DNA from: Fulvivirga sp. M361
GTDB taxonomy: Bacteria > Bacteroidota > Bacteroidia > Cytophagales > Cyclobacteriaceae
Assembly (NCBI RefSeq): GCF_007097395.1
Contig: NZ_VKDC01000006.1
Coordinates: forward strand, 210,073-274,072
DNA: 64,000 bases
Direction: 5' to 3'
Part shown: piece after piece, positions 24,764-55,165 of the stretch
Layout of the letters: the number at the start of each line of letters is the position of its first letter
Position numbering within the stretch: position 1 is the first letter of the stretch
The notes under the pieces: generated by a model
Told to the model about the DNA's origin: nothing
The model's database searches: none
What the model saw: only the letters and a program-made list of their open reading frames with translations
Program-made: the position numbers and the translations under genes

Positions 24764-25768
24764 ATGAAAAGAGTATCACTTGATATGATAGCCAAGGAAG
24801 TAAAACTTTCTAAAACCACCGTATCAATGGTACTTAATGGAAAGGGAGATCTGCACAAAATCAATCCTGATACGCAAACACTGATCCTTAGTGTAGCTAA
24901 ACGGCTCAAGTTCAGACCTAATATGATTGCCAGAAATTTGTCCACGGGTAGCAGTATGACTTTGGCATTGATTGTCCCGCGTATGATCGATACGTACTAC
25001 GGCCTTATCGCCGAATCGATGGAACAAATATTGTCAAAATTGGGATATCAGGTTTTACTGGGAACCACCCATGAGGATCCTGTCAAGGAAAAGGAGCTTT
25101 TATTAACATTTGAGGCACAGCAGGTGGATGGTATTTTAATTGCGTCCACTCAGCACAATCTTGAAGATATAAAAGCCATTTCAGATGCAGGGTTGCCAAT
25201 AGTGCTGTTTGATCGTCACTACCCTGAGGCAGACTTGCCTTATGTGGTGGTGGATAATTACCTGGGTGCCCAAAAATTGGTGAGGCATTTGATAGAGGCC
25301 GGAAGAAAGAATATAGGCTATATCGGGTTAAACCTGGACTTAACAGCTATAAAGGACAGACAAATTGGTTTTGAAAACGCCATTGAAGATCACGTAAAAG
25401 ATCAGCATAACCTCAAAATTGTTGACCATAAAAATGCTAAATCAGACTGTCGCCAGGCAGTGGAGGAGCTAATTTTAGATCAGGGGGTGGATGGTATCGT
25501 ATTTGAAACCCACTATCTTGCCTTATTCGGGATTGCCAAGATCAGAGAAATGGATGTTGACTACCCTAATGCTGTTTCAATTGTAAGTTTTGGTGATCAC
25601 GAGGTGTTTTCTATTTTTCGGCCGGAGGTGACCGCTTTAGTGCAACCCGTAGAAAAAATTGCTCAAAATTCTATCGATATGCTTATGAAGCAAATTGAGA
25701 ATAAGCTGAACAGCACTTCGAAGTTACACGAGGTGGTAGAGCCCAGTATGGAAGTTAGGAGCACTTAA
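24764..25768 (+). CDS. LacI/GalR family transcriptional regulator
   Basis: The N-terminal HTH (SLDMIAKEVKLSKTTVSMVLNG, residues 5-26) and the hinge with NMIARNLSTG are standard LacI. The rest is a periplasmic-binding-type sugar-sensing domain (IVPRMIDTYYGLIAESMEQ to GDHEVFSIFRPEVTALVQP). It is the only LacI-type regulator in the window. Five near-identical CG-centred palindromes of LacI-operator type lie downstream, two of them 62 and 120 bp beyond its stop, so it is the best candidate to bind them and to govern the mannose/N-glycan genes. The inducer is probably mannose or a glycan fragment (inference). Confidence 0.93.
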   Translation: MKRVSLDMIAKEVKLSKTTVSMVLNGKGDLHKINPDTQTLILSVAKRLKFRPNMIARNLSTGSSMTLALIVPRMIDTYYGLIAESMEQILSKLGYQVLLGTTHEDPVKEKELLLTFEAQQVDGILIASTQHNLEDIKAISDAGLPIVLFDRHYPEADLPYVVVDNYLGAQKLVRHLIEAGRKNIGYIGLNLDLTAIKDRQIGFENAIEDHVKDQHNLKIVDHKNAKSDCRQAVEELILDQGVDGIVFETHYLALFGIAKIREMDVDYPNAVSIVSFGDHEVFSIFRPEVTALVQPVEKIAQNSIDMLMKQIENKLNSTSKLHEVVEPSMEVRST

Positions 25769-26028: not shown

Positions 26029-28935
26029 ATGAAGTTTCGGACTAGACTGAATAATAAAACCTTTAAACTACACGCTACTATGAGGGGCACCTTTTTGGTA
26101 TTATTCGTGCTTGCCATGAGCTGGCCGAGGCTGTGGGCCCAGGATGGTAAAATCCATTATTCTACTCCTTTAAATTATCAAAAACAGGGAGAGCGTATTA
26201 TAGTAAGTTCCAAAATGTACCTCAGCGGTGGCTTTAAAGGGCTAAGTATCTATTTAGAGGGTACAAAGATACCTTATAAAGCTATTGGTAAAGATACAGT
26301 GCAACTCCAACTACCCTTAATTGGAGACAATGTTGAATTGACCATAAAACGGAGGGGGAAGCCGGACCTGGTAAAAGTTTTCACCCCACTTGTGCCGGCC
26401 GATTGGAGCTATTTTCAGGAAGGTACCATACACATTATTGTTTCTTCACATCAGGATATTGCGTGGATGAATACGCCGGAGTATTGTCGGGATGAAAGAA
26501 TCCATGATATTATTCTTCCTGCATTAGATACAATGCGTCTCTATGATGAATACCGGTTCGAAATGGAGCAGACCTTGAACCTGATGGAACTGCTGGATGA
26601 GTATCCTGAAAAGAAATCGGTGGTGTTAGACGCCTATAATAAAGGACAATTTGAATGGGGAGCCACCTTTAATCAACCCTATGAGGGGATAGAAAGTAGT
26701 GAGCAACTGATACGCCAGCTTTATCTTGGAAGAAAGTGGATCAAAGACAATATACCTGGCATGGATGCTCATACAGCTTTCAATGTGGATGTTCCCGGTC
26801 GTAGTTTTCAATTTCCACAAATTTTGAACAAGGGTGGCGTTAAAAATCTGGTGATCAGCCGTTTTAGGGAAGGCTTTTACGATTGGAAAAGTCCGGATGG
26901 TTCCAGCATTTTTACGTATAGTCCGGGTAATTACGGTTGGCCGGTGATCTTTTATAAATATTTTGATAAAGAAGCGCCCTATGGTATGAAGGCGCTGCAT
27001 GCAAATCTGAAGGACTGGCATGATTACTACAAGAAAAGAAATATTCCACCACATTATGCTGTGATGATCAGCCAGGATGCTGCAGGTCCGATCTACTACA
27101 GGGAAGTAGTGAAGGAATGGAATAACATAGTGAGTATGTCCGATATTAAATTACCCGGTTTACGTCATTCTACGGCAGATGAGTTTCTGGGTTTTGTGAA
27201 CGTACCCGAAGCTACGTTCGATGAGATCTACGGGGAAAGGGCCAATATCTGGATGTACATTCACGGGCCTGGTCACTATCAGGCCATCAAAGCCAAGAAA
27301 AAAGCGGCTGTTAGCTTGCCGGCCGCTGAAATGTTTTCCACCATCTCGGCCATGATAAATGATGATTTTGATAATTATCCCGGTGACGATTTTGAGAAAG
27401 CCTGGTTTAAGGCCATTTATCCGGATCATGGTTGGGGAGGCCTCAATGGTGGAGTAACGGATAGTACATTTCTTGCCAAGTTGAGCCAGGCCCATTCAGA
27501 GGGGACCCACCTGCTACAGAAAGCCCTCAAAAACATCACCAAGCACATCAAAACAACGAAAAAGAATGCTTATGCTGTTTTCAATGATCTTACCTGGAAG
27601 CGGAATGCACCGGTGTCTATTTCGCTACCTTCTACTAACAAAACGTACTTGGTTCAGGACGATCTGGGAAAAACCATTCCGAGCCAGAAAGTGACGGATG
27701 ACCAGGGAACCCGGTTAGTAGTTGCCGCTGAGGAGCTTTCTTCCGTAGGCTACAATGTCGTTTATTTATCAGAAACAAGAAAAAAGCCTGTCAGGACGAC
27801 CAAACAAGGAGCCAATTTTTACGAAAACGACTACTACAGGGTAGTCCTGGGTAACGGCGGAATAACTTCTTTGTATGATAAGAAACTGGGCAAAGAAATC
27901 CTTAATACTTCAAGGTATGCCGGAGGTGACGTGATCTCTATGCATTACAATGGTAACGGAGCCGGGGAATTCAATCAGATGAAAAAGCCCGATATGCGTC
28001 GTTTCGATAAGCTCAGCTTAAAAAACAGTCATTGGAAAATTAAAAGTAACGGCCCTGTCTTTACATCATTTGAATGCGACTATGAACTCAATGAAATATC
28101 AATTGTTCAGCGCATTACCATTTTCAATACGATCAAGAGAATTGATTTTGAATACGATATCCCGGAATGGGACGGGCGAAAAGAACGTCAATGGAGGTTT
28201 GCGCTTCCTATGAATGCTATGGAAGCTGAGGTGAACTATGAATCCCCTGCAGGTGTCGTGACCGTTGGTGAGGATGATTTAGATATGGAGCCGGGAGGGT
28301 GGTCATGGGAAGGTACTTATCGTCAAAGGCCAAAGTACATCCATCCAAGAGAAGTGTTGGATTTTATGTCGTTGAATGGAGTTGAATTTGGTATCACGGT
28401 TTCCGGTACCGTATCCGTGATGGATTGGATAGATCCGGTACGTGATGCCAGGAATCATCCGGTATTTCAGGGAATTATGATCTCTACCCACAAAAGTTGT
28501 CATGGAATGGGACCCTATTACACACAGGAGGGACGGCACACGTTCCATTTTTCACTGACCTCACACGAAAGTGGGTGGGAAAATGGATATGTGTTCGCCA
28601 AAGAATTTCAGCATGAACCGTGGGCAACAAAACTTGAAAATGCCAATGGTTCAGGAAAACTGGACACCAGACATAGCTTTTTAAAAGTGAATTCTCCATT
28701 TACAGCACTGAGTACCTTCAAGAAAAGCGATTATGATAACGATGTGATTTTGAGATTTATAGATATGAGTGGCAAGGATAGTCAATACACGATTGATTTT
28801 CCATGGAAGTATAAAAAATGGGGAAAAACTAATCTGGTGGAGGAAAGTTATAAGGAGGTCGATACGAGGGGTGGGGAAACGTTGAATATTTCAATCGGCA
28901 AAAACGCTATTGAAACATTCAAAATTGACTTTTGA
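26029..28935 (+). CDS. GH38-type alpha-mannosidase, exported (divergent)
   Basis: After a leader ending in PRLWAQ (the start may instead be ATG 26080) come an N-terminal beta region, the GH38 barrel, a helical bundle and large C-terminal beta domains. The metal/active-site block reads SSHQDIAWM with His141 and Asp143. The nucleophile block reads FNVDVPGRS with Asp254, where classic GH38 enzymes have HxHxDxGW and DPFGHS, so the core residues are kept but the context is divergent. It would remove alpha-mannose from N-glycans or mannans. It heads a six-gene unit behind two operators. A second relative is at 43587. Specificity (1,2-, 1,3- or 1,6-linkage) cannot be told. Confidence 0.85.
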   Translation: MKFRTRLNNKTFKLHATMRGTFLVLFVLAMSWPRLWAQDGKIHYSTPLNYQKQGERIIVSSKMYLSGGFKGLSIYLEGTKIPYKAIGKDTVQLQLPLIGDNVELTIKRRGKPDLVKVFTPLVPADWSYFQEGTIHIIVSSHQDIAWMNTPEYCRDERIHDIILPALDTMRLYDEYRFEMEQTLNLMELLDEYPEKKSVVLDAYNKGQFEWGATFNQPYEGIESSEQLIRQLYLGRKWIKDNIPGMDAHTAFNVDVPGRSFQFPQILNKGGVKNLVISRFREGFYDWKSPDGSSIFTYSPGNYGWPVIFYKYFDKEAPYGMKALHANLKDWHDYYKKRNIPPHYAVMISQDAAGPIYYREVVKEWNNIVSMSDIKLPGLRHSTADEFLGFVNVPEATFDEIYGERANIWMYIHGPGHYQAIKAKKKAAVSLPAAEMFSTISAMINDDFDNYPGDDFEKAWFKAIYPDHGWGGLNGGVTDSTFLAKLSQAHSEGTHLLQKALKNITKHIKTTKKNAYAVFNDLTWKRNAPVSISLPSTNKTYLVQDDLGKTIPSQKVTDDQGTRLVVAAEELSSVGYNVVYLSETRKKPVRTTKQGANFYENDYYRVVLGNGGITSLYDKKLGKEILNTSRYAGGDVISMHYNGNGAGEFNQMKKPDMRRFDKLSLKNSHWKIKSNGPVFTSFECDYELNEISIVQRITIFNTIKRIDFEYDIPEWDGRKERQWRFALPMNAMEAEVNYESPAGVVTVGEDDLDMEPGGWSWEGTYRQRPKYIHPREVLDFMSLNGVEFGITVSGTVSVMDWIDPVRDARNHPVFQGIMISTHKSCHGMGPYYTQEGRHTFHFSLTSHESGWENGYVFAKEFQHEPWATKLENANGSGKLDTRHSFLKVNSPFTALSTFKKSDYDNDVILRFIDMSGKDSQYTIDFPWKYKKWGKTNLVEESYKEVDTRGGETLNISIGKNAIETFKIDF

Positions 28936-28953: not shown

Positions 28954-30348
28954 ATGAACTCAAACCAAAATACCAAGTACCTGTTTCTAGTTTCCATCAC
29001 AGCCGGACTGGGAGGTTTTTTGTTTGGGTTTGATACAGCTGTGGCGTCTGGTACCATTGGTTTTCTGCGGGAGAAGTTTGCACTAAATGAGGTCATGGAA
29101 GGGTGGATCATGAGTTCTGCACTACTGGGAAGTGTTGTCGGAGCAGCAATTTCAGGGTTTTTGAGTGATAAATATGGAAGAAGGCTGATTTTGATGTTTT
29201 CTGCTTTATTGTTCTTAGTATCTGCTTTGGCTTCTACCATTCCTGAGGCACCTGGTTTTTTGGTGGCCGCCAGGCTTATTGGAGGTATAGGAGTAGGGAT
29301 CGCTGCTATGGTAGCGCCTTTGTACATTTCTGAACTGGCCCCGGCAAATTTACGCGGCAGATTGGTGTCCCTCTATCAGTTTGCTATTACACTGGGTATA
29401 TTGTTCTCATACCTCTCAAACACCTTCCTCCTCAATAATGCCACTAATAGTGAAGTAACCAGTGGTTTTTTAAACTACATATTTGTTGAAGAAGTCTGGC
29501 GTGGCATGTTTGGTTCGGAAACATTACCGGCCATATTATTTTTCGTACTGCTCTTCTTTGTTCCCAAGAGCCCGAGGTGGTTGACAAAAGAGGGCCAGTC
29601 TGAAGAGGCCTCAGCGGTCTTGACAAAAATACATGGTGAGACCATGGCCAAGGTGGAAATGGAGGAGATCACGGACACAATCAGCCACGAGTCAGGAAGT
29701 TTCAAACAGCTATTCAGCAAAGGACTAAGGGTCGCCCTGGTCATAGGATTGGTACTGCCACTCGTAAGCCAATTTACAGGTATTACCACTGTCATGTACT
29801 ATGCACCAACCATTTTCGAATTAGCGGGTTTTCAATCCGGTTCGGCTTTTGGAACAGCCGCCTTGATTGGATTCGTTAACATGATATTTACCCTTGTTGC
29901 CATCTGGAAGATAGATCATTTTGGCAGGAAACCAATTTTAATGGCAGGTTTCCTGGGTTTAAGTATCGCACTTTTTCTGATTGGTTTTCAGTTTACAGGA
30001 AGTCAGGAGATAGACCAGGCGGGAACGGCCATAGTTGCATCGTTTTTATTTTATATCATGGTGTTTGCAGCTACCATCGGTCCGGGCGTCTGGGTACTGC
30101 TGTCGGAGATCTATCCTACAAAAGTCAGAGGGAGAGCCATGGCCATAGGCACATTCTGCCTGTTTGTCGGATCCACTCTGGTGACTCAAACTTTCCCCAT
30201 GTTACGCGGCTGGCTTGGTATCGGGCCTACCTTTTGGGTCTATGCGGCTATTATGCTCCCTGGATTATACTTCGTATGGAAAGTTGTGCCGGAGACAAAG
30301 AATAAGACCCTGGAAGAGATAGAAAAAATGTGGATCAAAAAAAATTAG
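28954..30348 (+). CDS. MFS sugar porter (XylE/GLUT type)
   Basis: This protein of 464 residues has 12 predicted helices and the sugar-porter signatures: GFLFGFDTAVASG in helix 1, DKYGRR in the loop 2-3, PKSPRWL after helix 6, and PETKNKTLEEIE at the end. The family imports free hexoses or pentoses by proton symport. It starts 19 bp after the GH38 mannosidase, so mannose is the likely cargo (inference). Entry as free sugar fits a downstream pathway that begins with oxidation and not with a kinase. Confidence 0.92.
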   Translation: MNSNQNTKYLFLVSITAGLGGFLFGFDTAVASGTIGFLREKFALNEVMEGWIMSSALLGSVVGAAISGFLSDKYGRRLILMFSALLFLVSALASTIPEAPGFLVAARLIGGIGVGIAAMVAPLYISELAPANLRGRLVSLYQFAITLGILFSYLSNTFLLNNATNSEVTSGFLNYIFVEEVWRGMFGSETLPAILFFVLLFFVPKSPRWLTKEGQSEEASAVLTKIHGETMAKVEMEEITDTISHESGSFKQLFSKGLRVALVIGLVLPLVSQFTGITTVMYYAPTIFELAGFQSGSAFGTAALIGFVNMIFTLVAIWKIDHFGRKPILMAGFLGLSIALFLIGFQFTGSQEIDQAGTAIVASFLFYIMVFAATIGPGVWVLLSEIYPTKVRGRAMAIGTFCLFVGSTLVTQTFPMLRGWLGIGPTFWVYAAIMLPGLYFVWKVVPETKNKTLEEIEKMWIKKN

Positions 30349-30356
30349 TGCCTTTT

Positions 30357-30815
30357 ATGAATCGATTAGAAAAATACAGTAACAAACTTCCGGGATACCA
30401 TCCTATTCTGATAAGGGAGGGCTGGCAAGTGGCCCAGCTCAATTATATGGAGGAGCAGGATGTAATGAACATCAAAAGAATAGATGTACACCGGCAGACC
30501 GATGAAGTTTTTTGGTTACAAAAAGGTCAGGTGGCACTGATTACTGCTGAGTTAAATGATGGCAAACCCAAATTTTATGCAGAATTAATGTTGCCGGAAG
30601 TGGTGTATAACATACCTGAAAATGTTTGGCACAACATCGCAATGACTCCGGGCAGCGAAGTGGTAATTGTCGAAAAGTCGAATACGCATTTAGCGGATTT
30701 TGAATTTTTTGATCTGAGCGATCAGGAGTGCCTGGAATTGAAGGAAACAGTGTTTAATGTATTTAATGCACCTAAACTTAGTGAGCGAGTAAATGGAAAT
30801 TTGGAAAGACGATAG
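30357..30815 (+). CDS. Small cupin-like protein
   Basis: The 152-residue protein has a single beta-barrel pattern: ...RIDVHRQTDEVFWLQKGQVALITAE, then YNIPENVWHNIAMTPGSEVVIVE. This resembles a cupin, with His residues at H-x-x-T-D-E-V and W-H-N-I as possible metal ligands. ATG 30357 was chosen (8 bp after the porter stop) over the GTG at 30330 that overlaps it. It lies between the sugar porter and the aldolase-like gene, so it may be a sugar or sugar-acid isomerase or a lactone-handling helper. No precise reaction can be assigned. Confidence 0.65.
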   Translation: MNRLEKYSNKLPGYHPILIREGWQVAQLNYMEEQDVMNIKRIDVHRQTDEVFWLQKGQVALITAELNDGKPKFYAELMLPEVVYNIPENVWHNIAMTPGSEVVIVEKSNTHLADFEFFDLSDQECLELKETVFNVFNAPKLSERVNGNLERR

Positions 30816-31485
30816 CGAGCTATTCAGTATAGCTAAAAAGGAACTTTTTGTTGCTCTGGTAGGAGATGTTCTGGACAAATTAGGATTTCAGCATCAATTC
30901 CTGTCGCCTCAGGTTAAACCTCTTCGGGATGATTTTATCACCATAGGGCGTGCCATGCCAGCCCTTGAGGCGGATGTCTTTGAAGAGGTAGTTGAAAACA
31001 CGAATAACCCAATGATGAGAAAGCCATTTGGGATCATGTTTGAAGCGTTGGATAGCCTGAAAGAAAATGAAGTTTATATCTGCTCCGGTGCTTCCCCCCG
31101 ATATGCCTTATGGGGAGGGCTTATGAGCACACGGGCTATCAAACTCGGAGCGGCAGGAGCAGTATTAAATGGTTACTCAAGGGATACCAATGAGATTCTC
31201 AACCTCAATTTCCCGACCTTCTCATTTGGCGGATATGCCCAGGACCAGGGGCCAAGAGGGAAAGTGATCGATTATAATGTGTCCATTGAGTTTGATAACA
31301 TTCGTGTCAATCCGGGAGATATTATCTATGGAGATAGGGACGGTGTCCTGGTCATTCCACAAGAAGTGGAAAACGATGCTTTCGCTGGGGCCATTGAGAA
31401 AGCCCGTGGAGAAAAATTAGTACAAAAAGCGCTTCAGGAAGGAATGAGTACGGTGGATGCGTTTGACAAATTCGGAATAATGTAA
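30793..31485 (+). CDS. RraA-like aldolase/decarboxylase
   Basis: The 230-residue protein has the RraA (HMG aldolase-like) fold signs: GDVLDKLG near the N-terminus, WGGLMSTRAIKLGAAGAVLNGYSRD with the Arg-Asp pair that binds metal and oxo acid, and YGDRDGVLVIP. Family members cleave 4-hydroxy-2-oxo acids to pyruvate plus an aldehyde, or act as RNase E inhibitors in E. coli. Next to mannonate dehydratase, whose product 2-keto-3-deoxygluconate is such a 4-hydroxy-2-oxo acid, an aldolase role on that product is attractive (inference). It overlaps the cupin gene by 23 bp and the SDR gene by 1 bp. Confidence 0.85.
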   Translation: MEIWKDDSELFSIAKKELFVALVGDVLDKLGFQHQFLSPQVKPLRDDFITIGRAMPALEADVFEEVVENTNNPMMRKPFGIMFEALDSLKENEVYICSGASPRYALWGGLMSTRAIKLGAAGAVLNGYSRDTNEILNLNFPTFSFGGYAQDQGPRGKVIDYNVSIEFDNIRVNPGDIIYGDRDGVLVIPQEVENDAFAGAIEKARGEKLVQKALQEGMSTVDAFDKFGIM

Positions 31486-32309
31486 TGTCAGGGATAGTGA
31501 ATGAAATAAACCTTAAGGGGAAAAAAGCATTAGTTACTGGTGGTAGCCAGGGAATAGGTGCAGGGATATGTCGAAAACTGGCTGCTTGTGGCGCTGATGT
31601 AATTATTAATTACTATCGGAATAAAGAAAAAGCGGAATTGTTAGCCTCAGATATTAAGTCGCAATTCGGAGTGAATGCATGGACATGTTATGCCAATGTA
31701 GGTAAGGGTTCGGATATAACGGACATGTTCACTTTTATGGATGGCAAGACCGGAGGGATCGATATTCTCATCAATAACGCAGGCATTGAAACGGTCACCC
31801 ATGTGCTGGATATGACCGAAAAGGAATGGGACAGGATCATGGATGTAAACCTTAAAGGACCTTGGTTATGCGCGCAACACGCCGGAAGAAGAATGGAAAA
31901 GGCCGGAGGCGGAGTGATCATCAACATTTCCTCTATTCATGATGTCGTACCCAGAAAGGGGCTAATACATTACTGCACCTCAAAAGCAGGACTGAAAATG
32001 ATGTCCAAATGTCTGTCACTTGAACTGGTAGATAAAAATATCAGGGTGGTTTCAGTAGCTCCCGGAGCTATTTACACTGAAATGAACCGTGAAGAAATTA
32101 AAAAATTCGGAGTGGAAAAATTTGAAAAGTGGATCCCGTCCGGAAACGTTGGCGAGGTAGAGGACATCGCAAATGCCGTTGCATTTTTAGCAAGTGGTCT
32201 TTCTTCCTACATACACGGGGCGGACTTGTATATCGATGGGGGATACATGAACAATACGATTCAGTATGATCCAAGACCTCCAAGAAAAAATAACAATGCA
32301 GAATCTTAA
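31485..32309 (+). CDS. SDR family dehydrogenase (possible mannose dehydrogenase)
   Basis: Classic short-chain dehydrogenase of 274 residues. It has the cofactor motif TGGSQGIG near residue 18, NNAG in strand 4, and the catalytic Ser/Tyr/Lys set with Tyr163-C-T-S-Lys167. The C-terminal GADLYIDGGY is usual for glucose-1-dehydrogenase-like SDRs. An Asn-Tyr rather than an acidic residue after strand 2 (VIINYYRNKEKA) suggests NADP or mixed use. It lies between RraA and mannonate dehydratase. Oxidation of mannose to its lactone is the simplest assignment, but reduction or oxidation of a keto acid is also possible. Confidence 0.88.
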   Translation: MSGIVNEINLKGKKALVTGGSQGIGAGICRKLAACGADVIINYYRNKEKAELLASDIKSQFGVNAWTCYANVGKGSDITDMFTFMDGKTGGIDILINNAGIETVTHVLDMTEKEWDRIMDVNLKGPWLCAQHAGRRMEKAGGGVIINISSIHDVVPRKGLIHYCTSKAGLKMMSKCLSLELVDKNIRVVSVAPGAIYTEMNREEIKKFGVEKFEKWIPSGNVGEVEDIANAVAFLASGLSSYIHGADLYIDGGYMNNTIQYDPRPPRKNNNAES

Positions 32310-32344
32310 AGTAGCGAATAAAAATACAGAAAACAGGGTATAAG

Positions 32345-33415
32345 ATGATTAAGCTTGGTTTCGGACTATACAGACACATGCTCAATGAAGCGCATTACAA
32401 ATTTGCCAAACAATGCGGGGCTACACATTTGGTCATTCACATGGTTGATTATTTTGGGCATGAGAAGAACTCAAAGGACAATACGAATCAACCGGTAGGT
32501 GAGAAAGAGGGCTGGGGTAAGGCCGGTACCGGTTCTCCGATATGGTCAACGGACCAGCTTAAAAGCATAAAGTCTGAGATCAATAGTCATGGCCTGGAAT
32601 TAGAGGCGATAGAAAATTTTGATCCGGCACATTGGTACGACATTTTACTGGATGGGCCGAAGAAAACAGAACAAATCGAAGACTTAAAACAACTCATCCG
32701 GAATGTAGGAGAAACGGGTATTCCTGTTTTTGGATACAACTTTTCATTGGCTGGTGTGAGTTCCCGGATCATGGGTGAGTTTGCCCGGGGGGGTGCCATA
32801 TCGGTAGCTATGGAAAAAGGAGATGAAACTCCAATTCCCAACGGGATGGTGTGGAATATGGTGTACGACGAAAATGCACCTGAAGGAGTGATGCCTGAGA
32901 TCGACCATAACGAACTATGGGAAAGGGTAGAATATTTTTTGCAAGAGTTGTTGCCTGTAGCTGAGGAGGCGGGTGTGAAACTGGCTGCCCATCCGGATGA
33001 CCCTCCATTGCCCTATATCAGAAAGACACCCCGGTTGGTTTTTCAACCGGACTTGTATCAGAGGCTTATTGATATAAAAGAGAGCAAGGCCAACAACCTG
33101 GAATTTTGCTTGGGATCTATTGCCGAAATGACGGAAGGCGATGTATACGAAGCTACAGACCAGTACAGCCGGCAGGGGAAAATAGCCTACATACATTTTA
33201 GAAACGTGGTAGGAAAAGTGCCCAGGTACAAAGAAGTATTTGTAGATGAAGGGGACATTGACATGCTAGAGATATTGAAAATTTTAAAGAAAAATGAGTT
33301 TGACGGAGTGCTCATACCTGATCATACACCACAAATGAGTTGTGATGCACCCTGGTATGCCGGAATGGCTTATGCTATGGGGTATATGAAAGCTTTGATA
33401 AAGCAAGTTGAGTAG
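32345..33415 (+). CDS. uxuA: D-mannonate dehydratase (UxuA family)
   Basis: UxuA dehydrates D-mannonate to 2-keto-3-deoxy-D-gluconate with a divalent metal. The 356-residue protein shows the TIM-barrel metal-site blocks of this family: HPDDPPLP, FCLGSIAEM with Cys-Leu-Gly-Ser, YIHFRNVVG, DEGDIDM and IPDHTPQM. In the hexuronate pathway UxuA works with UxaC and UxuB, but neither is here. Instead it is in one unit with an SDR, a sugar porter and an alpha-mannosidase, which points to mannonate made from mannose. It is the last gene before a strong hairpin at 33608. Confidence 0.92.
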   Translation: MIKLGFGLYRHMLNEAHYKFAKQCGATHLVIHMVDYFGHEKNSKDNTNQPVGEKEGWGKAGTGSPIWSTDQLKSIKSEINSHGLELEAIENFDPAHWYDILLDGPKKTEQIEDLKQLIRNVGETGIPVFGYNFSLAGVSSRIMGEFARGGAISVAMEKGDETPIPNGMVWNMVYDENAPEGVMPEIDHNELWERVEYFLQELLPVAEEAGVKLAAHPDDPPLPYIRKTPRLVFQPDLYQRLIDIKESKANNLEFCLGSIAEMTEGDVYEATDQYSRQGKIAYIHFRNVVGKVPRYKEVFVDEGDIDMLEILKILKKNEFDGVLIPDHTPQMSCDAPWYAGMAYAMGYMKALIKQVE

Positions 33416-33607
33416 AAGAAACGATATTATTATCTGTGAAATACAAAGAATTACAAATAAAGAGACTGAGGTTGTCGCGTGTTGTTTTTGGACGAGGTGG
33501 AAGAACAATTAGCCCTGATAAAAAATGCGACTATTCAAACGATGAAGTGTAATAAAAATGATCCTTACTATAACCAAATGAAATATGATATAAGCAAATG
33601 TTCTAAA

Positions 33608-33636
33608 AAAACGATGCTACCAGGTAGCACCGTTTT
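33608..33636 (+). terminator. Rho-independent-like hairpin after the mannonate dehydratase gene
   Basis: Two 14-nt arms (AAAACGATGCTACC at 33608-33621 and GGTAGCACCGTTTT at 33623-33636) pair with one mismatch around a minimal loop, ending in TTTT. It separates unit 1 from susC. The surrounding 304-bp gap 33416-33719 also contains a 65-codon frame that I do not consider a gene. Confidence 0.7.
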
Positions 33637-33719
33637 CCAGTGTCTAAGGTGTCAAAACCTCGCAAAAAATTTATGACACCAGACCACTTTAAATACTTAT
33701 TAATTAAACTTTCAAATAT

Positions 33720-36700
33720 ATGAAAATTGAAGCTTTACAGAGAATTAAGAAATTAATGAAGCTGGCTTCTTATGGAATTATTTGCCAGATATTGATTATC
33801 AATACAATAACGGCAAATAATCTATCTGCGAAAGAAATCCAGCAGGCCTCAGACATTCAGGTTTCCGGCAAGGTGTTGGATGAAAACGGTGAATCCTTAC
33901 CAGGAGTGAATGTACTTATTAAAGGAACTACGAATGGAACGGTAACCGATTTTGATGGTAATTATAACATTCAAGTTCCTGAAGATGGGACTTTGGTCTT
34001 TAGTTATGTCGGATACGCAAGGCAGGAGATAAATATCAATAATAGGACCGTTATTGATGTAAATATGGAACTGGATGCTTCACAGTTAGGTGAGATCATT
34101 GTGATCGGCTATGGAGAGACAAAAAAGGAAGATGTTACCGGTTCTTTAGGCGCAATAGACACTGAACGAATTGAACGAAGGGTTTCGGTCAATCCTCTCG
34201 ATAACTTACAAGGTGAGGTGGCTGGCGTTAATGTCGTTAATACTTCCGGTAGACCGGGTGGAGGTATCAACGTATTAGTTAGAGGTATTACTTCCATCAG
34301 CGCTACTAATCAGCCGTTATATGTTATTGACGGTATTATCGATGCCGATATCTCGCAGATCAATACAAACGATATTGAGAGCATTACAGTACTAAAAGAT
34401 GCCTCTGCTACAGCTATTTATGGTTTTATAGCATCGAACGGTGTAGTGATCGTTACTACTAAAAGAGGAACAAGCGAAGGAGTTACCCTTGATGTAAATT
34501 ACAATTTGCAAGTAGGCAGATTAACGAATAAACCTGAGGTGCTGAACTCGCAGGAGTATTGGGGTGATTTAAAACCTCGTGTAGACCAACAGTTAAGAGA
34601 TATTGGGGCTGATGATGGTTTCTTTACCGATAACTACGCAGCAAGGTTTCCATTATTGTTTAATCCTAGTGATGCTGAATCAGTTTATGGAGACCCAAGA
34701 TTTGATACGGATTGGTTAGATGAATCTACCCGAACCAGTGTATCACACCAATATTTTGCTAATCTACGTGCAGGTGGTGAAAATTACGCGCTTTCTTTTT
34801 CTGTAGGTAGCCAGGATGACGAAGGTATTGTGCTCAATACTTCTCTGGAAAAGAATACGATGCGTTTTAATGGGGACTACTATGTCAAAGATTGGTTAAA
34901 GGTAGGAGGTAGTTTGTCCTATGCGGAGACAAAGACCAACAGAGTAGATGACTATCGTGTAGGTGCAGATGGCTTGACATATGCCTCACTTTTTTACTTA
35001 CCTATATACCCAACACGTTATGACGATGGTTCAGTAGTGAATGCTGATGATCTTGTAAAGCCAAACGGCCAATGGGATGTGTGGTATGGCAGAACTCCTT
35101 CCGAACGATTGAATATGCTAACCAGGGAGTCAAAGACTACGCAGTTATTGAGGAATGTCTTCGTAGAGATAGATTTTTTGAAAAACCTTAAATTCAGAAC
35201 TGCTTTGTCACAGGAACAGATCGAGAACGATGGTAATACTCACGTGCCTAAAGAACTGGATACTTTTGTGAATCGAACTTCTGCGACTGTTTCGAACAGT
35301 GAGTTTTTATCCACGCAATGGGAAAATACATTGAATTATAACACGCAATTCGGTGCTGATCATGACCTTAATATACTAGCCGGTGCTTCCTGGTATAGCA
35401 CTGAATCATTTGCATTTAGCGCAAGTGGTCAGGATTTTGACGATTTTTTCAGATTTTATAACTTGGCACAATCAGATGATGAATTCGAACGTATTACCAG
35501 TGGACAATCTGAAAGTAAGGCGGTATCATTTTTTGGTAGGGCTAATTATACTTACAAAGGCAAATACCTGGTTACAGCTACCGGTAGGTATGATGGATCC
35601 TCAAGGTTTGGTGCAAACAATGAGTTTGCCTTTTTTCCATCAGCTGCCGTAGGATGGAGAATCAGTGAAGAGGGCTTCCTGAAGGATAATAGTACCATGA
35701 GTAATTTAAAATTGAGGGCGAGCTGGGGTAAAACCGGTAATTCCAATATCCCCAATTTTCAAAGATTTGGACAGCCCGGTCAACAAAATGCAATTTTCGG
35801 TGGTAGGTCCGTAAATAGTACTTCTCAGGGAAGGATTGGAAATGATGATTTAAAATGGGAAGTGACCACTGAAACTAATGTTGGTCTGGACATTGGTTTA
35901 TTCGATAGAGTGAACCTTACATTCGATTATTATACAAAAGAAAGTGATGATCTGCTTCTTGGTATACCCATAGCTAGATTTACAGGTTACAGTAATATTT
36001 TCGGTAACGCCGGGTCTCTTCAAAATCGGGGTATAGAATTGGGAATCAATTCACAAAATATAGCTACGAACGACTTCAGTTGGAATACCTCATTGAATTT
36101 TGCCAGAAATGTAAATGAGGTAACCTCTTTGGGTATTGATGATTCAGATTTTATACGATCAGTCCAGTTTGGAGGGTTCAATGAGCAAATCTTTAGAGTG
36201 GGAGAGGCTGCCGGATCTTTCTATGGCTATAACAGATTAGGTACCTGGAATATAGGTGAAGAGGATGAGGCTGCTATTTATGGTGCTGTACCAGGTGACA
36301 TTAGGATTGAAGATGTCAATGATGATGATGTGATTGATTCGGAAGATTTACAGATCATCGGTAACGGACTTCCCGACTTCACACTGAATATAGGAAATAC
36401 ATTCACCTATAAGAATTTCGCTTTGTCATTTGACATCAGAGTGGTTCAAGGTAGCGAGATTGTCGATTATTCAGTTCTCCTGAATGTTGATCGTCAGGGA
36501 TATGGTAATACGTATAGGGAGTTTTTCCAGCAGGCCTGGACCCCGGAAAATCAGAATACCATGTATCCAAGGGTAAGAAGGGATTTGAAATTCTTTAGAG
36601 GAATTGACACAGGTCATGTGTTTGATGCAAGCTTTATTAGAGGGCAAAACCTCAGTTTGTCATATGATTTTAATACCAACATTGTAGAGAGAATTGGGCT

Positions 36701-36869
36701 GGGTGGAGCTCAGATATATCTGAATTTTCAAAACTGGTTCTTGATTACTGATTACCATGGATACGATCCTGAAGCCAGTTCATACAATGATGAATTCTTC
36801 ATAGGTTACGAATTGAACGGTTATCCGAAAGCGTTGATTACGAACATTGGAATTAGAGCTAATTTTTAA
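33720..36869 (+). CDS. SusC-type TonB-dependent outer-membrane transporter
   Basis: 1049 residues: a leader of about 40 residues, a carboxypeptidase-D-like domain (VSGKVLDENGESLPGVNVLIKGT to YVGYARQE), a TonB box region (GEIIVIGYG), the plug with RGITSISATNQPLYVIDG, and a 22-strand barrel ending in ITNIGIRANF. No STN domain is present, so it is a transporter and not a FecR-signalling receptor. SusC proteins import oligosaccharides with the SusD lid encoded 10 bp further on. Its place inside the mannosidase locus suggests N-glycan or manno-oligosaccharide uptake (inference). No ACTAAA operator was seen in front of it. Confidence 0.95.
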   Translation: MKIEALQRIKKLMKLASYGIICQILIINTITANNLSAKEIQQASDIQVSGKVLDENGESLPGVNVLIKGTTNGTVTDFDGNYNIQVPEDGTLVFSYVGYARQEININNRTVIDVNMELDASQLGEIIVIGYGETKKEDVTGSLGAIDTERIERRVSVNPLDNLQGEVAGVNVVNTSGRPGGGINVLVRGITSISATNQPLYVIDGIIDADISQINTNDIESITVLKDASATAIYGFIASNGVVIVTTKRGTSEGVTLDVNYNLQVGRLTNKPEVLNSQEYWGDLKPRVDQQLRDIGADDGFFTDNYAARFPLLFNPSDAESVYGDPRFDTDWLDESTRTSVSHQYFANLRAGGENYALSFSVGSQDDEGIVLNTSLEKNTMRFNGDYYVKDWLKVGGSLSYAETKTNRVDDYRVGADGLTYASLFYLPIYPTRYDDGSVVNADDLVKPNGQWDVWYGRTPSERLNMLTRESKTTQLLRNVFVEIDFLKNLKFRTALSQEQIENDGNTHVPKELDTFVNRTSATVSNSEFLSTQWENTLNYNTQFGADHDLNILAGASWYSTESFAFSASGQDFDDFFRFYNLAQSDDEFERITSGQSESKAVSFFGRANYTYKGKYLVTATGRYDGSSRFGANNEFAFFPSAAVGWRISEEGFLKDNSTMSNLKLRASWGKTGNSNIPNFQRFGQPGQQNAIFGGRSVNSTSQGRIGNDDLKWEVTTETNVGLDIGLFDRVNLTFDYYTKESDDLLLGIPIARFTGYSNIFGNAGSLQNRGIELGINSQNIATNDFSWNTSLNFARNVNEVTSLGIDDSDFIRSVQFGGFNEQIFRVGEAAGSFYGYNRLGTWNIGEEDEAAIYGAVPGDIRIEDVNDDDVIDSEDLQIIGNGLPDFTLNIGNTFTYKNFALSFDIRVVQGSEIVDYSVLLNVDRQGYGNTYREFFQQAWTPENQNTMYPRVRRDLKFFRGIDTGHVFDASFIRGQNLSLSYDFNTNIVERIGLGGAQIYLNFQNWFLITDYHGYDPEASSYNDEFFIGYELNGYPKALITNIGIRANF

Positions 36870-36879
36870 ATCAAACATT

Positions 36880-38358
36880 ATGAAAAAGTATTTAATTCTA
36901 GCATTGGCTGGTGTTTTAAGTTTTACATCATGCACCGATCAGTTGGAGGTGACACCAGATTCTTTTAAAGGAGTTGTTGGGACTACCCTTTTGGATGCGC
37001 AAGAATCCGTGAACGGAGCTTACGTATTCCTTAGAAACCCATATGGTAAATATGCTTTTGCTTCGATAGGGTTTAGCATATTAGAGGTGCCTACTGGTAC
37101 TATGAAACCTGCTGCAGGTACACAAGATACAGGTATGGAACAGGCATACGCATTGACTTTTGATGACAATAATAATAATGCATTTGTCCTTTGGCAGGCC
37201 TATTTCGACGGCATAGAAGCTGCTAATATTGCTATTGCCTCGATACCAAATATTTCAGACCCTGATCTGACGGATGAATTAGCCAGTTCTTTACTGGGGC
37301 AAGCCTATTTCCTTCGTGCATATTACTACTTTCAGTTGGTTCAGATCTTTGGAGATATTCCGTTGAAAACTACACCTTCATCATCATTGTCTGATGGTAA
37401 ATTGCCAAAATCAAGTGTGCAGGAGATTTATGAGCAGGTGATTGTTCCCGATCTTCAACAGGCCGAAGCAGCCGGACTTCCTTCTACCAGCGCTGAAGGT
37501 AGGGTAACACTGGGAGCCGTGAAATCTTTATTGGCTAAGGTATATCTTACCATGGCAGGCAGTCCGTTGAATCAAACAGACAAATATACCCTGGCGGCTG
37601 AAAAAGCGCTTGAGGTAATTAACTCAGGAGCCTTTTCTTTATTTCAAGATGGTGGAGGCTTCAGATGGGTTGACAAATTAAGAGAACCTGATTTTGATTT
37701 AACAGAAGAGCATATTTTCATGGCTCAGTTTGCCACGGCAATACCTTCGTCTTTTTCACAGTATTTTACGCCTATAGGAGGAGTTGAAATAAGCGCCCAG
37801 ACATTACACTTTGGTGGTATGGAGCCGGAAGAAGATTTCTACAACAGCTATGATCCTTCAGATGTCAGGGGCCAGAACCAGGGGTTTTTCTTCGATTCTT
37901 TCGATGGCGTTTCATTTAACCTTTCCGTATATAAATATTTTGACGAAACATTTCGAAATCAGGCACAAGGTCTTGGGACTAAGAGTTTTCCATTATTGCG
38001 ATATGCTGATGTCTTGTTAATTTATGCAGAAGCACAAAATGAATCCGGAACAGCTAATACCCAAGCCTATACCGCTTTGAACTCAATTCGTGGAAGAGCA
38101 GGATTATCCGATGTCGCCGGACTTTCTCAGAACGACTTTAGAGAGGAAGTATGGAGACAACGCGCATGGGAGTTTCCTGCTGAGGGTGGTTATGTTTGGT
38201 TTGATATGAAACGTACCATGAAAGTATTCAATGGTACAGGATTTGACGACTTCGTTGGTGCTACTTTGCCTAATGGAAATACCTTAGGCTCAGATAACAT
38301 TTACTTTCCTATACCTGCAGGAGATGTTCTTTTGAATCCTGCTTTGGGTGACGGATAA
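36880..38358 (+). CDS. SusD/RagB family glycan-binding lipoprotein
   Basis: A lipobox (SFTSCTD, Cys18) places it on the outer membrane. The N-terminal part has the SusD start (VTPDSFKG...LLDAQESVNGAYVFLR), the TPR-like region AYFLRAYYYFQLVQIFGDIPL, and the C-terminal RYADVLLIYAEAQNESG and WFDMKRTMKVF typical of the family. It lids the SusC barrel and binds the glycan. The ATG at 36880 was chosen, 11 bp after the SusC stop; the frame is open further upstream but overlaps susC. At 492 residues it is within the normal range. Confidence 0.95.
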   Translation: MKKYLILALAGVLSFTSCTDQLEVTPDSFKGVVGTTLLDAQESVNGAYVFLRNPYGKYAFASIGFSILEVPTGTMKPAAGTQDTGMEQAYALTFDDNNNNAFVLWQAYFDGIEAANIAIASIPNISDPDLTDELASSLLGQAYFLRAYYYFQLVQIFGDIPLKTTPSSSLSDGKLPKSSVQEIYEQVIVPDLQQAEAAGLPSTSAEGRVTLGAVKSLLAKVYLTMAGSPLNQTDKYTLAAEKALEVINSGAFSLFQDGGGFRWVDKLREPDFDLTEEHIFMAQFATAIPSSFSQYFTPIGGVEISAQTLHFGGMEPEEDFYNSYDPSDVRGQNQGFFFDSFDGVSFNLSVYKYFDETFRNQAQGLGTKSFPLLRYADVLLIYAEAQNESGTANTQAYTALNSIRGRAGLSDVAGLSQNDFREEVWRQRAWEFPAEGGYVWFDMKRTMKVFNGTGFDDFVGATLPNGNTLGSDNIYFPIPAGDVLLNPALGDG

Positions 38359-38460
38359 TGTATAAAGAGTAGTAGAGTTGTGGTGCCCTGCTTGGGTGCC
38401 ATAACTCCTACAACTGAATATGCAGATCTCTTTTAATGTGATGAATCAACGATCGTACCT

Positions 38461-39525
38461 ATGAAGTTATACATCGGTTGTTATACCAAGCAGATAACTG
38501 AGGAGTTAGTGGGAAAGGGAGACGGTATATATGTGTTAGACTTTAATCCATCTGATGGTTCAATTCGATACTCTGATTGCATCCCGGCTACTAATCCTAG
38601 TTATCTGAACATTTCATCGGATTGTAAAATTTTATTTGCTTTAGAGGAAAATCCAATTGAAGAATGGCCAAAGGTTTGTTCCTATCGAATAGGTGAAGCC
38701 TCCGAAGATCGGCATTTGGAATTAATCAATAAGCAGGAACTGCCAGGGTCATTTGCGTGTCATTTGTCACCTTCAAAGTCAGGGAATCATTTGATCGTAG
38801 GAGCATATATGTCTGGTAACATACTTGTTTACCCTATCACGTCTGAGGGTTGCATTGAGCCCTATATTCATAATGTAACTCATAAGGGTAACGGGCCAAA
38901 TAAAATACGTCAGGAAGCTCCACATGTTCATTTTGTCTGTCCGAATGATATAGGTCAGTTTTACGCGGTTGATCTGGGAACAGACATGGTGAAATCTTAT
39001 AGGTTCACAGACGATTGGATCAAAGAGCAACCGGAGGAGAATATTCAGGTTGACACTGGTGCAGGCCCAAGACATATGGTAATAAGCCCATCGGGGGAAT
39101 ACATTTTTGTTTTCTCTGAATTAGATGCGAAAATCCATAGTTATAAGAAAAGCAACGGAAAATTTGAATGTTTAGAATCAGTGGCTACACTTCCTAAAGA
39201 TTTCAAAGGGGTGCCAAGCGGTGCGGCAATAAGGATGCATCCGAATGGAAGATTTATATATGTTTCCAACCGGGAGTATAATGGGATCACAATCTTATCC
39301 TTCGATAAAATCAGTGAAAAAATAGTTTTGATAGGCTTTGTTTCTTCGGGAGGAAAGACGCCGAGAGATATGAATATAGATCCTGATGGGAACTGGTTAA
39401 TTTGTGCTAATCAAGACTCTGATAACCTTATTGTATTCCGTATTCATCAAACATCAGGAAGATTATCTCAAATCAGTGTAAATGAGGAGATAAAAACCCC
39501 GAGTTGTGTATTATTTGGAAAATAA
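38461..39525 (+). CDS. Lactonase family beta-propeller (6-phosphogluconolactonase-like)
   Basis: The 354-residue protein is a seven-bladed propeller of the YbhE/Pgl-type lactonase family: repeated blocks of about 45-50 residues with IYVLDFN, VDLGTDMVKSYRF, GAGPRHMVISPSGEYIFV, IRMHPNGRFIYVSNREYNGI and TPRDMNIDPDGNWL. It has no signal peptide, so it acts in the cytosol. The family hydrolyses sugar lactones such as 6-phosphogluconolactone. Here, near an SDR and mannonate dehydratase, hydrolysis of mannonolactone is the fitting role (inference). It follows susD by 102 bp. Confidence 0.88.
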   Translation: MKLYIGCYTKQITEELVGKGDGIYVLDFNPSDGSIRYSDCIPATNPSYLNISSDCKILFALEENPIEEWPKVCSYRIGEASEDRHLELINKQELPGSFACHLSPSKSGNHLIVGAYMSGNILVYPITSEGCIEPYIHNVTHKGNGPNKIRQEAPHVHFVCPNDIGQFYAVDLGTDMVKSYRFTDDWIKEQPEENIQVDTGAGPRHMVISPSGEYIFVFSELDAKIHSYKKSNGKFECLESVATLPKDFKGVPSGAAIRMHPNGRFIYVSNREYNGITILSFDKISEKIVLIGFVSSGGKTPRDMNIDPDGNWLICANQDSDNLIVFRIHQTSGRLSQISVNEEIKTPSCVLFGK

Positions 39526-41031: not shown

Positions 41032-41355
41032 ATTAATAAAAATACTTATAAAGATTTACCTGAACACAAAACCCTTTCTTTACACGTTTACACCACATAT
41101 CAATAAGTATTAAGCAACGAAAGAACTAGCACTGGCATTTTTCAGAGGAACCGTCCATTATTCCTTGAGAAAGTTTCGGTTGCCTGGCCAGGAGGGGTAC
41201 TGTACGGGTGAATATATCCACAATACCCTGACCATCTTTTTACCAATATATTATGCTTCTAATACGGCATGAGCAGGTTCTACCTCTTCCGTTAAATGGA
41301 AAAATATACTTATGTTACAAAAACTAATTAAATTTTAATTTGCTGAAATATAATA

Positions 41356-41371: not shown

Positions 41372-41375
41372 TAGC

Positions 41376-42227: not shown

Positions 42228-42262
42228 AATAAATATTTTTGTATCACTAAATAGGAGGGGGT

Positions 42263-43045: not shown

Positions 43046-43048
43046 CTC

Positions 43049-43118: not shown

Positions 43119-43881
43119 ATTACGGAAAGTACTGATAAAGATGTACTCGAACACAAAGCCCTACCTAACCCATCTACGCTATGGATTAAGAAGTGTTAAG
43201 CAACGAAAGAGCCAGCATTTTTTAACTAATTGTAAATTATTCCTTGAGAAAGTTATGTCAACCTCACCAGAAGCAGTACTTTGCCGGTTAGTATATCCAC
43301 AATGATCTGATCATCAAGTCAATACATTATGCTTCCAATACAGCATGAGCAGCCCCCATCTCTTCGGTTAAACCGAAAAACATGCTAGTGGTACAAAAAC
43401 TAATTAAATTTTAATTTGCTGAAATATAATAACTAAAACGATTTAGTTAGCTATATTTGATAATAAATCAAACACCCTGTTAAGGTCATGGAGCATAAAT
43501 TCTCTGGTAGCGGCCAGGTTGGTAATAGCCTCAACCTGCAATATTCTTCATTTAAAGCGATTTTGGAAGGTCTTATTAACAGACCTATGAAAAAGTTTTT
43601 TGTACTTTTTATGCTTCTGGCATGTTCCGGTAATTCCTTTGCTCACGAAGGGGCCAGTAACAATCACATCCACACCATCAACACCAATTACAGGCTTTAC
43701 CAACAATGTAAGGGAGATGTAGAAGGCTATGCCGCTAAGCTAAGCGGGGGAGAATACGATTATCCCTCTCTTCGGGACGACCATAGGGATGCAATGATCT
43801 CCAGGGCTACCACGGGTAAAAATGGATTTGAATTCATGACCGGAAAAGTTCCGGAAGACTATAAAGGGAATCATGTTACCT
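43109..43881. repeat. Segmental duplication, right copy
   Basis: Counterpart of 41022-41805, offset by 2076 bp in its coding part. It holds operator 4, the -7 element and the first 98 codons of the intact GH38 gene. The 749-bp gap 42838-43586 otherwise contains only repeats 3 and 4 and this promoter region. Confidence 0.85.
43432..43447. promoter_or_regulatory. LacI-type operator, site 4
   Basis: ACTAAAACGATTTAGT, 140 bp before the GH38 start and 4 bp before the -7 element TATATTTG (43452-43459). Confidence 0.82.
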
Positions 43882-46800: not shown

Positions 46801-47114
46801 AGTTTAATGAACCGCTTTTTGTGGTCTATAACCCGGATAAATCATCCAAAGCGAACTTGTCAGACGAAGAAAGCTTTTTTACCGCACAAGGAAAGGACGT
46901 GATCGTTTCTGCGATCAAAAAAGCGGAAGATTCGGATGATGTGGTATTTCGACTTTACAATAGGGAAGGGGAGAGTACAAACGTGAATATCAACTCTTAT
47001 TTTGAATACGACCGTATGTTTCAAACCAACATCATTGAAGAAGAGCCAAAAGAAGTGAAACAACTGAGTCTGGGGAAATATGCCATCGAGACGGTGATAT
47101 TGGATGTGAAATGA
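43587..47114 (+). CDS. GH38-type alpha-mannosidase with large N-terminal domain
   Basis: 1175 residues from the ATG at 43587, which gives the signal peptide MKKFFVLFMLLACSGNSFAHEG; the frame is open back to 43488, but that part looks like leader. About 300 residues of beta-rich, unassigned N-terminal sequence precede the GH38 barrel. The active-site blocks are SSHQDIAWVD (His346, Asp348) and WNVDVPGKT (nucleophile Asp459). WGSPDGSSVFTYSPGHYG and PDHGWGGHDGDITDG are shared with the 26029 enzyme. It is thus a second member of the same divergent subfamily, probably acting on a different mannose linkage. It heads the unit with the solute-binding-like and CoA genes, 62 bp before them. Confidence 0.87.
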   Translation: MKKFFVLFMLLACSGNSFAHEGASNNHIHTINTNYRLYQQCKGDVEGYAAKLSGGEYDYPSLRDDHRDAMISRATTGKNGFEFMTGKVPEDYKGNHVTFFFYSDVDLNKRQPYDVKVNDRALLTFRAREDGTMEVLENPGNGKIEYILVKRDGNGDGVGALRLTVPKSIVKNGTQAKISVYGHHKGSNSWFMIFKVPDAVAQLAKSATQEVSFRIRQFNDMLLIDAPLRMAGKSVQLVSDKKKSEEAIFKVQGELAKASVKIAAPQKSFAIHFEGDVFYLKVEDPSKDINQSEVIGEFVYHVHSHASSDWSMTFSKFYRPKHFETYTNFFDAKYAKSKVSIMNSSHQDIAWVDRPEVCIIMRDTLLLTPVLKDAFERADYGFDVEDALMLREYMDRHPDAKDKISELLKRQLLSIGATYNCPYEDMYSGEDLVRQLYVGKRWLKSTFDGYDSKVYWNVDVPGKTLQMPQILKKAGVDYMIISRHAKSFFHWGSPDGSSVFTYSPGHYGTDLIHLSQDRGNQLRYGAEQVVWWGQYSEEKDHYTPLLSSQDMLPAIDYSEFIEAWNEKESIKDAKKKKKKIYLPDMELMTVDEFMPLAAQNVDLVDTIVGERPNVWVYIHGPTHHTALTASREGSKLLTAAEKFSTASYLLDKSKMPYPTAALDQAWQDKVYPDHGWGGHDGDITDGLFESKFVSSRVQGQQLLDKALTFLSSRVNTKEDKGIPVVIFNSLSWERTDPVTIDIDLPQGVTKSISIKDAGGRELTSQVSDLTTYGDGFINKAKLTFIAEKVPSVGYKTFYLHHSTPGSNGLNDLAKEASYENPYYQLTFTEGGLSQVYDKDLKKNLFLTNDFKTGEIFTLESVGNGAGEFGDIQQPFMNDFDKVSIHAPKVEIIENGSVFTTYRIKQQILHAIAQQDITIYHKLKRVQFDNKLLNWNGELYREFRTAYPVNMKNATITYDVPFGSVQVGRDEIHTAGERYTPLCKDVHPRAIMDWISASDGDMTVTLSSSVAAADWIDPTKENDRAVLQHLLLASRKSCHWEGNLYSQEGSHSYSHIVTSAPAGDRSGGLVAEQFNEPLFVVYNPDKSSKANLSDEESFFTAQGKDVIVSAIKKAEDSDDVVFRLYNREGESTNVNINSYFEYDRMFQTNIIEEEPKEVKQLSLGKYAIETVILDVK

Positions 47115-49094: not shown

Positions 49095-49097
49095 CAC

Positions 49098-52739: not shown

Positions 52740-52744
52740 CAAAC

Positions 52745-52846
52745 ATGAAAACATCCTTTTTAATTTCTAATGATAACAACGCAGATGATACGGGCAAAAT
52801 GCGGCATGAAATTTTGAAGAAACATACAAAAGAATTTGAACACTAA
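52745..52846 (+). CDS. Possible 33-residue leader peptide before the MFS gene
   Basis: An ATG at 52745, 5 bp after the GH92 stop, opens a 33-codon frame (MKTSFLISNDNNADD... ending KKHTKEFEH). Its TAA overlaps the TTG start of the MFS gene by 11 bp. It would allow translational coupling of the MFS gene, which otherwise has a weak start. The product resembles nothing I know, so this is tentative. Confidence 0.3.
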   Translation: MKTSFLISNDNNADDTGKMRHEILKKHTKEFEH

Positions 52847-54146: not shown

Positions 54147-54148
54147 AA

Positions 54149-55135: not shown

Positions 55136-55165
55136 CGAGGATTCTATCCATAAACACTTAAAACA

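Follow-up and report, generated by a model that had tools for sequence, protein, structure and literature searches.

A conserved operon in Fulvivirga and other Bacteroidota points to oxidation of free mannose without phosphorylation, with an RraA-fold protein as candidate aldolase

The locus analyzed here raises the question of how a bacterium whose alpha-mannosidase gene heads a unit of sugar-acid genes might use the mannose that is released. The genes lie in a 64,000-nucleotide stretch of Fulvivirga sp. M361 (contig NZ_VKDC01000006.1, positions 210,073 to 274,072; hereafter the window), which forms part of contig C105 of an 8.1-Mb source genome in 148 contigs. We consider, at a probability of about 0.56, that they constitute an operon for the catabolism of free mannose by stepwise oxidation without phosphorylation, in which an RraA-fold protein (hereafter RraA) acts as 2-keto-3-deoxygluconate (KDG) aldolase. 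Mannose set free from alpha-mannans or N-glycans would be imported by the porter, oxidized at C1 by a short-chain dehydrogenase/reductase (SDR) to mannonolactone, opened by the lactonase to mannonate and dehydrated by a divergent UxuA to KDG, which RraA would cleave to pyruvate and glyceraldehyde; the latter would pass to glycerate and then to a glycerate kinase encoded elsewhere. All substrates and reactions in this scheme are predicted from protein families, gene order, conservation, conserved residues and genomic contexts, which were themselves established by computation.

An earlier note, made from the letters of the window alone, had proposed such a route for a five-gene set of porter, SDR, lactonase, mannonate dehydratase and RraA-like aldolase. 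Scans of open reading frames (ORFs) and of protein families place all five genes where they had been put and in the families named, with the amendment that a cupin gene stands between the porter and RraA genes, and a SusC/SusD pair between those for UxuA and the lactonase. The alpha-mannosidase of glycoside hydrolase family 38 (GH38) that had been taken for the first gene of the unit is indeed present, outside the interval 28954-39525 that had been singled out and behind the gene for a LacI-family regulator (Table 1).

The same genes recur together in other genomes. Relatives of the UxuA-like gene were found in 455 candidate stretches, from which the 80 best loci, with 64-89% identity, were retained; five more were added, and ORFs were called and clustered in the resulting 85 loci. 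As the UxuA-like gene is the anchor of these loci, its own count is uninformative. A locus was classed as mannose-type when it holds an SDR that shares at least 50% identity with the one in the window (50 of the 85), and within this class RraA is present in 48 loci, the porter in 47, a GH38 match in 44, the cupin in 42 and the PF10282 lactonase in 39. The two loci without an RraA ORF are L101, in which tblastn does find RraA and an overlapping frame displaced it in ORF calling, and L042, with none in range. Most of the loci come from Bacteroidota, and a few belong to bins of verrucomicrobial and planctomycete type. Such recurrence makes the arrangement more than a chance neighborhood, and the genes form a conserved operon. 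An M24-fold gene occurs in 7 of the 11 mannose-type loci that have no PF10282 lactonase (L056, L057, L095, L096, L099, L101 and L104) and in none that has it (Fisher test, 3e-6, a guide only since the loci are related); the M24-fold protein is possibly a stand-in, an unrelated lactonase. Also recurrent in the vicinity are GH76 (17 loci) and a protein resembling cellobiose 2-epimerase (4 loci). The oxidative path from mannose through mannonolactone and mannonate to KDG, as first suggested for the window, is thus well supported by context, namely by the conserved gene content of the 50 mannose-type loci.

The step that would yield KDG is assigned to a family of which mannonate is a known substrate. 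The UxuA-like protein scores well above the cut-off of Pfam PF03786 (183.4 versus 23.7 bits) and shares 28-31% identity with E. coli UxuA, with the canonical UxuA of the source genome and with a third member encoded on contig C94. Residues H216, C255, H284 and H327, which we take to be metal ligands, are invariant in 16 aligned sequences, including E. coli UxuA and the canonical UxuA of the genome. Judged from its sequence, the protein is best described as a relative of UxuA in a subfamily of its own, and is not filed as UxuA proper. A canonical hexuronate function for it was considered and thought unlikely: the earlier note had reported UxaC and UxuB absent, and no match to UxaC or to E. coli UxuB is found in the window, the absence of UxaC holding for the window and not for the genome, where contig C68 carries UxaC adjoining the canonical UxuA (60% identical to that of E. 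coli) in a UxuA-UxaC-SDR set. The third UxuA-family gene (L111:9824-10873; 31% identical to the UxuA-like protein of the window) has neither RraA nor UxaC within ca. 10 kb by tblastn.

For the last step, the structure model of RraA (pLDDT 94.8) has among its best Foldseek matches the 4-hydroxy-4-methyl-2-oxoglutarate/4-carboxy-4-hydroxy-2-oxoadipate (HMG/CHA) aldolase 3NOJ (rank 5, TM 0.77/0.75, E 6.1e-17, 22% identity). Residues G108, R130, D131 and E207 of RraA are invariant in 45 aligned sequences of its clade, and a profile alignment places them exactly on Gly101, Arg123, Asp124 and Glu199 of 3NOJ, which are described as pocket, catalytic and metal residues of the HMG/CHA aldolase (PMC5065237). 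With this fold and these aligned positions in common, pyruvate-enolate chemistry by RraA is likely, although the substrate is not given thereby. RraA lies far below the NCBIfam cut-offs for HMG/CHA aldolase (53.1 versus 179 and 49.2 versus 304.5 bits) and is not filed as such, and the two differ in setting, a sugar operon here and an aromatic-acid pathway there. A role as RNase regulator was also considered for RraA and thought unlikely, given the catabolic operon in which it stands and the aldolase residues that it retains.

The argument for the substrate of RraA is drawn from genomic context, and it extends beyond mannose, as relatives 57-83% identical to RraA are found in other sugar-acid gene sets. 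In four loci, an RraA (76-83% identical) belongs to the same block as UxaC (glucuronate isomerase), a different SDR, a transporter gene and a UxuA-like gene, a block that is another route to KDG; the cupin is not labeled in these four loci. The source genome holds two RraA genes besides that of the window, the first (72% identical) 3.8 kb from KduI, whose neighbors resemble, by eye, a GH105 protein and a hexuronate porter, and the second (64%) grouped with genes for an SDR and for a member of the enolase superfamily. A search for RraA in 50 genomes (threshold 1e-40), followed by mapping of the genes outside UxuA operons, shows that most of the latter fall into two kinds, according to whether a type A or a type B enolase-superfamily protein accompanies them. 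At that threshold, Maribacter luteus RZ05 and Algibacter pectinivorans each give a single RraA hit; the RraA of Agaribacillus aureus (L105) is 90% identical to that of the window. Type A stands beside RraA in 9 maps, of which 8 also show an SDR and 6 an SMP30-like gene, and its top NCBIfam matches are gluconate/galactonate dehydratases, below cut-off. Type B stands beside RraA in 6 maps, with SDR, RidA-like and creatininase-like genes; it has weak matches only to named families, and a dehydratase function for it is a guess. The type B loci (L138, L140-L143 and L154), which represent a candidate sugar-acid route, in some cases also carry sulfatase-like genes.

The strength of this association can be gauged from PF13378 genes, one of which lies within 5 kb of 17 of 22 RraA genes outside UxuA operons (17 genomes), compared with 0.29 expected by chance from 128 PF13378 genes in ca. 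98 Mb. As many of the RraA loci are related, the corresponding probability is not to be taken literally, though several dehydratase types are involved. One further RraA gene (L135, genome G119) was excluded from the count since its contig measures 3.9 kb; an SDR and a transporter gene are present there. The five misses are L133, with KduI; L145, with an SDR and a sulfatase; L137, where a single ORF starts like type B and continues, by eye, as a RidA-like protein; and L144 and L155, with a PF13378 gene at 9 kb, that of L144 being type A (L158). One of the 17 positive cases, L143, has a mannose-type UxuA at a distance of about 6 kb, with opposite-strand genes between.

In a tree of 86 RraA proteins, one supported clade (95/89) unites the RraA of all four UxaC-bearing loci with those of the KduI locus, of three type B loci and of the mannose loci L040 and L050, so that context appears to shift with little change of the enzyme. 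In six further mannose loci, from Chitinophagaceae and Sphingobacteriaceae, the RraA is only distantly related (45-49% identical), so that the mannose context has acquired RraA from two branches. We tentatively extend the proposal to the whole clade, and would put it just short of an even bet that its members are 2-keto-3-deoxy sugar acid aldolases, the shared last enzyme of at least four kinase-free routes of Bacteroidota (those for mannose, for hexuronates and for a keto-uronate from pectin, plus one or two of galactonate-like type). Two dehydratase superfamilies without relation to each other would feed these routes, as would lactone-openers that can replace one another (PF10282, SMP30-like, M24-fold and creatininase-like).

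Several observations weigh against oxidation of mannose with RraA as the final aldolase. The UxuA-like protein, called simply UxuA before, remains under both NCBIfam cut-offs for mannonate dehydratase (148.3 versus 191 and 116.9 versus 199.55 bits), so that the earlier name holds at the level of PF03786 only. The source genome encodes a ManA-family protein on contig C94, which qualifies the observation that no mannose-6-phosphate isomerase was seen in the window; mannokinase, likewise not seen there, was not the object of a search. No aldehyde dehydrogenase was noticed among the recurrent clusters annotated, which are a part of all clusters; as to the subsequent kinase, a glycerate kinase of PF02595 is present in the source genome and one of the DUF4147 type is absent from it. 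RraA is missing from the stretch in two of the six loci with the UxaC-SDR-transporter-UxuA set (L053 and L058), being found elsewhere in their genomes, and the KduI of the source genome lies on the opposite strand to the nearby RraA copy, with a regulator between. Among the 35 loci without a mannose-type SDR, RraA is seen in the stretch in 16 and not in the other 19, many of which are on short contigs. Finally, in a phylum sample of 395 genomes (source genome included), a UxuA-like relative is found in 20 at 1e-20, at least 52% identical in 6 of them; both genomes with UxuA at least 78% identical carry RraA, all four at 52-56% lack it at 1e-40, and three genomes have RraA and no close UxuA. 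The link between RraA and UxuA is thus restricted to the close UxuA subfamily.

Also significant is the second possible fate of KDG. A KDG kinase gene, 71% identical to the operon-linked one of L078, adjoins a 2-keto-3-deoxy-6-phosphogluconate (KDPG) aldolase gene on contig C46 of the source genome, as was found on checking for a KDG kinase elsewhere in the genome, a check that had been proposed for the window. Because this pair exists, RraA is not the sole possible outlet for KDG. A genome with the UxuA-like gene and without KDPG aldolase, which would have forced the role upon RraA, was sought among the genomes of 50 of the 80 loci, hand-picked with a preference for isolates, long contigs and RraA-bearing loci; PF01081 is present in 50 of 50, and hence none of these is a genome in which RraA must cleave KDG. 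Nor was mutual exclusion of RraA and the kinase/KDPG aldolase pair seen, since KDG kinase and KDPG aldolase each occur in 7 of the 50 mannose-type loci, the same 7, which hold RraA as well.

The best surviving alternative, in our estimate unlikely yet to be taken seriously, is accordingly that mannose is oxidized to KDG as proposed, the kinase and KDPG aldolase of C46 finish the route, and RraA has a side job, for instance decarboxylating oxaloacetate or clearing a by-product. The HMG/CHA aldolase does also decarboxylate oxaloacetate (PMC5065237), Flavobacterium UMI-01 uses a kinase/KDPG aldolase pair in alginate breakdown (PMC5334617), and a Maribacter strain grown on arabinogalactan induces a sugar kinase and KDPG aldolase along with other sugar-acid enzymes (PMC11036162). 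Set against this, the pair is missing from the stretch in 43 of the 50 mannose-type loci, in which RraA is nearly constant, and near RraA genes outside UxuA operons neither enzyme was found in any of 23 stretches, some of them short (L133-L138, L140-L155 and L157). Neither gives a tblastn match in the 64-kb window, so that the operon itself has no semi-phosphorylative Entner-Doudoroff outlet, and a side job would leave the company of RraA with several sugar-acid gene sets unexplained. Cleavage of KDG by RraA, as the earlier note had it, therefore appears better supported than before, by context and conserved residues, with the kinase route as an existing alternative in the same genome; a mixed fate of KDG is possible.

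A substrate of the operon other than mannose, either a different aldose or a sugar acid whose stereochemistry resembles that of mannose, is improbable. The SDR and porter families are broad in specificity, and the UxuA-like and RraA genes occur with UxaC as well; the frequency of GH38 and GH76 genes in the loci, the GH92 and GH130 genes of the window and the established activity of the UxuA family on mannonate all favor mannose. Very unlikely, lastly, is an action of RraA on a 2-keto-3-deoxy acid as dehydratase/decarboxylase. FlDet, an RraA-family protein of Flavobacterium sp. UMI-01, shows this activity on 2-keto-3-deoxyglucarate (PMC8563752), which also counts against the aldolase assignment. 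Against such an action, mannonate-derived KDG lacks a second carboxylate that could be released, and an alpha-ketoglutaric-semialdehyde-dehydrogenase-like gene is labeled in one of 23 RraA-anchored maps (L138, source of the query).

All genes of the unit, and that for a LamG-domain protein, lie on the plus strand; the porter, cupin, RraA and SDR genes are contiguous or overlap and are followed after 35 bases by UxuA. The SDR gives matches below cut-off to L-rhamnose 1-dehydrogenase and glucose dehydrogenase relatives, and SusC-like ORFs are present in other loci too. The cupin, 152-161 residues long, has 3d0j as its nearest solved relative (phmmer, E 1.8e-14) and might act on lactone or ring forms. 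Downstream, a second mannose cluster begins with another GH38 gene and continues with a module of solute-binding-like, enoyl-CoA hydratase family and CaiB-type genes. The three genes of the module occur together in 26 of the 85 loci, mostly inside the operon, and the copies in the window are 61, 64 and 80% identical, respectively, to the operon-linked ones; relatives of the solute-binding-like protein have, by eye, no signal peptide. Neither the cupin nor this module has a place in the proposed chemistry. Ahead of the second cluster, at 41157-43619, a 300-base stretch (89%) and its flanks are duplicated about 2.08 kb apart, which yields a short copy (41412-41846) of the start of the second GH38 gene, with a PIN-domain gene between the copies.

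Table 1. Genes of the proposed mannose operon and of the adjoining cluster, with positions in the window.
Feature	Position	Strand	Matches and remarks
LacI-family regulator	24764..25768	+	PF00356, PF00532; LacI cluster in 16/85 loci; likely controls the unit
GH38 alpha-mannosidase, first gene of the unit	26029..28935	+	PF01074, PF07748, PF17677
SP-family major facilitator superfamily (MFS) sugar porter, proposed mannose importer	28954..30348	+	PF00083, 388.7 bits; TIGR00879 above cut-off
Cupin	30357..30815	+	Outside all Pfam/NCBIfam families; GTG start at 30330 also possible
RraA-fold protein, proposed KDG aldolase	30793..31485	+	PF03737
SDR, proposed mannose 1-dehydrogenase	31485..32309	+	NF005559 'glucose 1-dehydrogenase' subfamily, above cut-off
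Divergent UxuA, proposed mannonate dehydratase	32345..33415	+	PF03786; 3ban, E 3.3e-36
SusC-type TonB-dependent transporter	33720..36869	+	ORF; named from sequence and position before SusD, without Pfam scan
SusD-type lipoprotein	36880..38358	+	PF07980, PF14322
PF10282 lactonase, proposed mannonolactonase	38461..39525	+	303 bits
Second GH38 protein, start of neighboring cluster	43488..47114	+	PF01074, PF07748, PF17677
Solute-binding-like, enoyl-CoA hydratase family and CaiB-type CoA-transferase module	47177..50291	+	Pfam
GH92, MFS, GH130 and NagB/PIG-L genes	50505..57076	+	Pfam; mannose/N-acetylglucosamine glycan context

Compared with known systems, the proposed sequence of reactions is that of the archaeon Thermoplasma acidophilum, where mannose likewise passes through mannonolactone, mannonate and KDG to pyruvate and glyceraldehyde without phosphorylation, and where the route works with the purified enzymes AldT, ManD and the KDG aldolase Ta1157, the lactone opening spontaneously (PMC6901390). 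In contrast, the route predicted here would be encoded in a bacterial operon that also supplies a lactonase, a porter and a mannosidase, with a dehydratase of the UxuA family and an RraA-fold protein in the place of the aldolase. ManD and Ta1157 are not known to be RraA proteins. In the archaeon Natronoglomus mannanivorans, mannan clusters also contain mannonate dehydratases, and an RraA-family gene appears in the legend of a cluster figure, but the route is predicted only and its authors lead KDG to a kinase and KDPG aldolase (PMC10963439). FlDet resembles the RraA of the window in family, in its bacteroidote host and in a 2-keto-3-deoxy sugar acid as substrate; it differs, by description rather than by sequence, in the substrate and reaction themselves and in belonging to an alginate route (PMC8563752). 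A 2025 paper describes an RraA-family aldolase adjacent to UxuA in Paenibacillus, and one in its vicinity in Agrobacterium, and interprets the pair as a hydratase and an aldolase acting in lignin breakdown (PMC12673573). Passages of PMC10444878, PMC13274419 and PMC5673643 contain nothing on RraA, and in listings and passages of the open-licence literature no report was found of this operon, of an oxidative mannose route in Bacteroidota or of an RraA-fold KDG aldolase. This suggests that, while the reaction sequence is already known from archaea, its version in a bacterial operon and a KDG aldolase role for an RraA-fold protein may be new.

If the proposal is correct, many Bacteroidota would possess a phosphate-free branch for mannose, which is a major sugar of N-glycans and of the mannans of algae and fungi, and proteins annotated only as RraA-family would gain a sugar function that can be tested. 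The UxuA-RraA neighbors of Paenibacillus and Agrobacterium that have been assigned to lignin breakdown (PMC12673573) would then also admit an alternative reading, as enzymes of sugar-acid metabolism.

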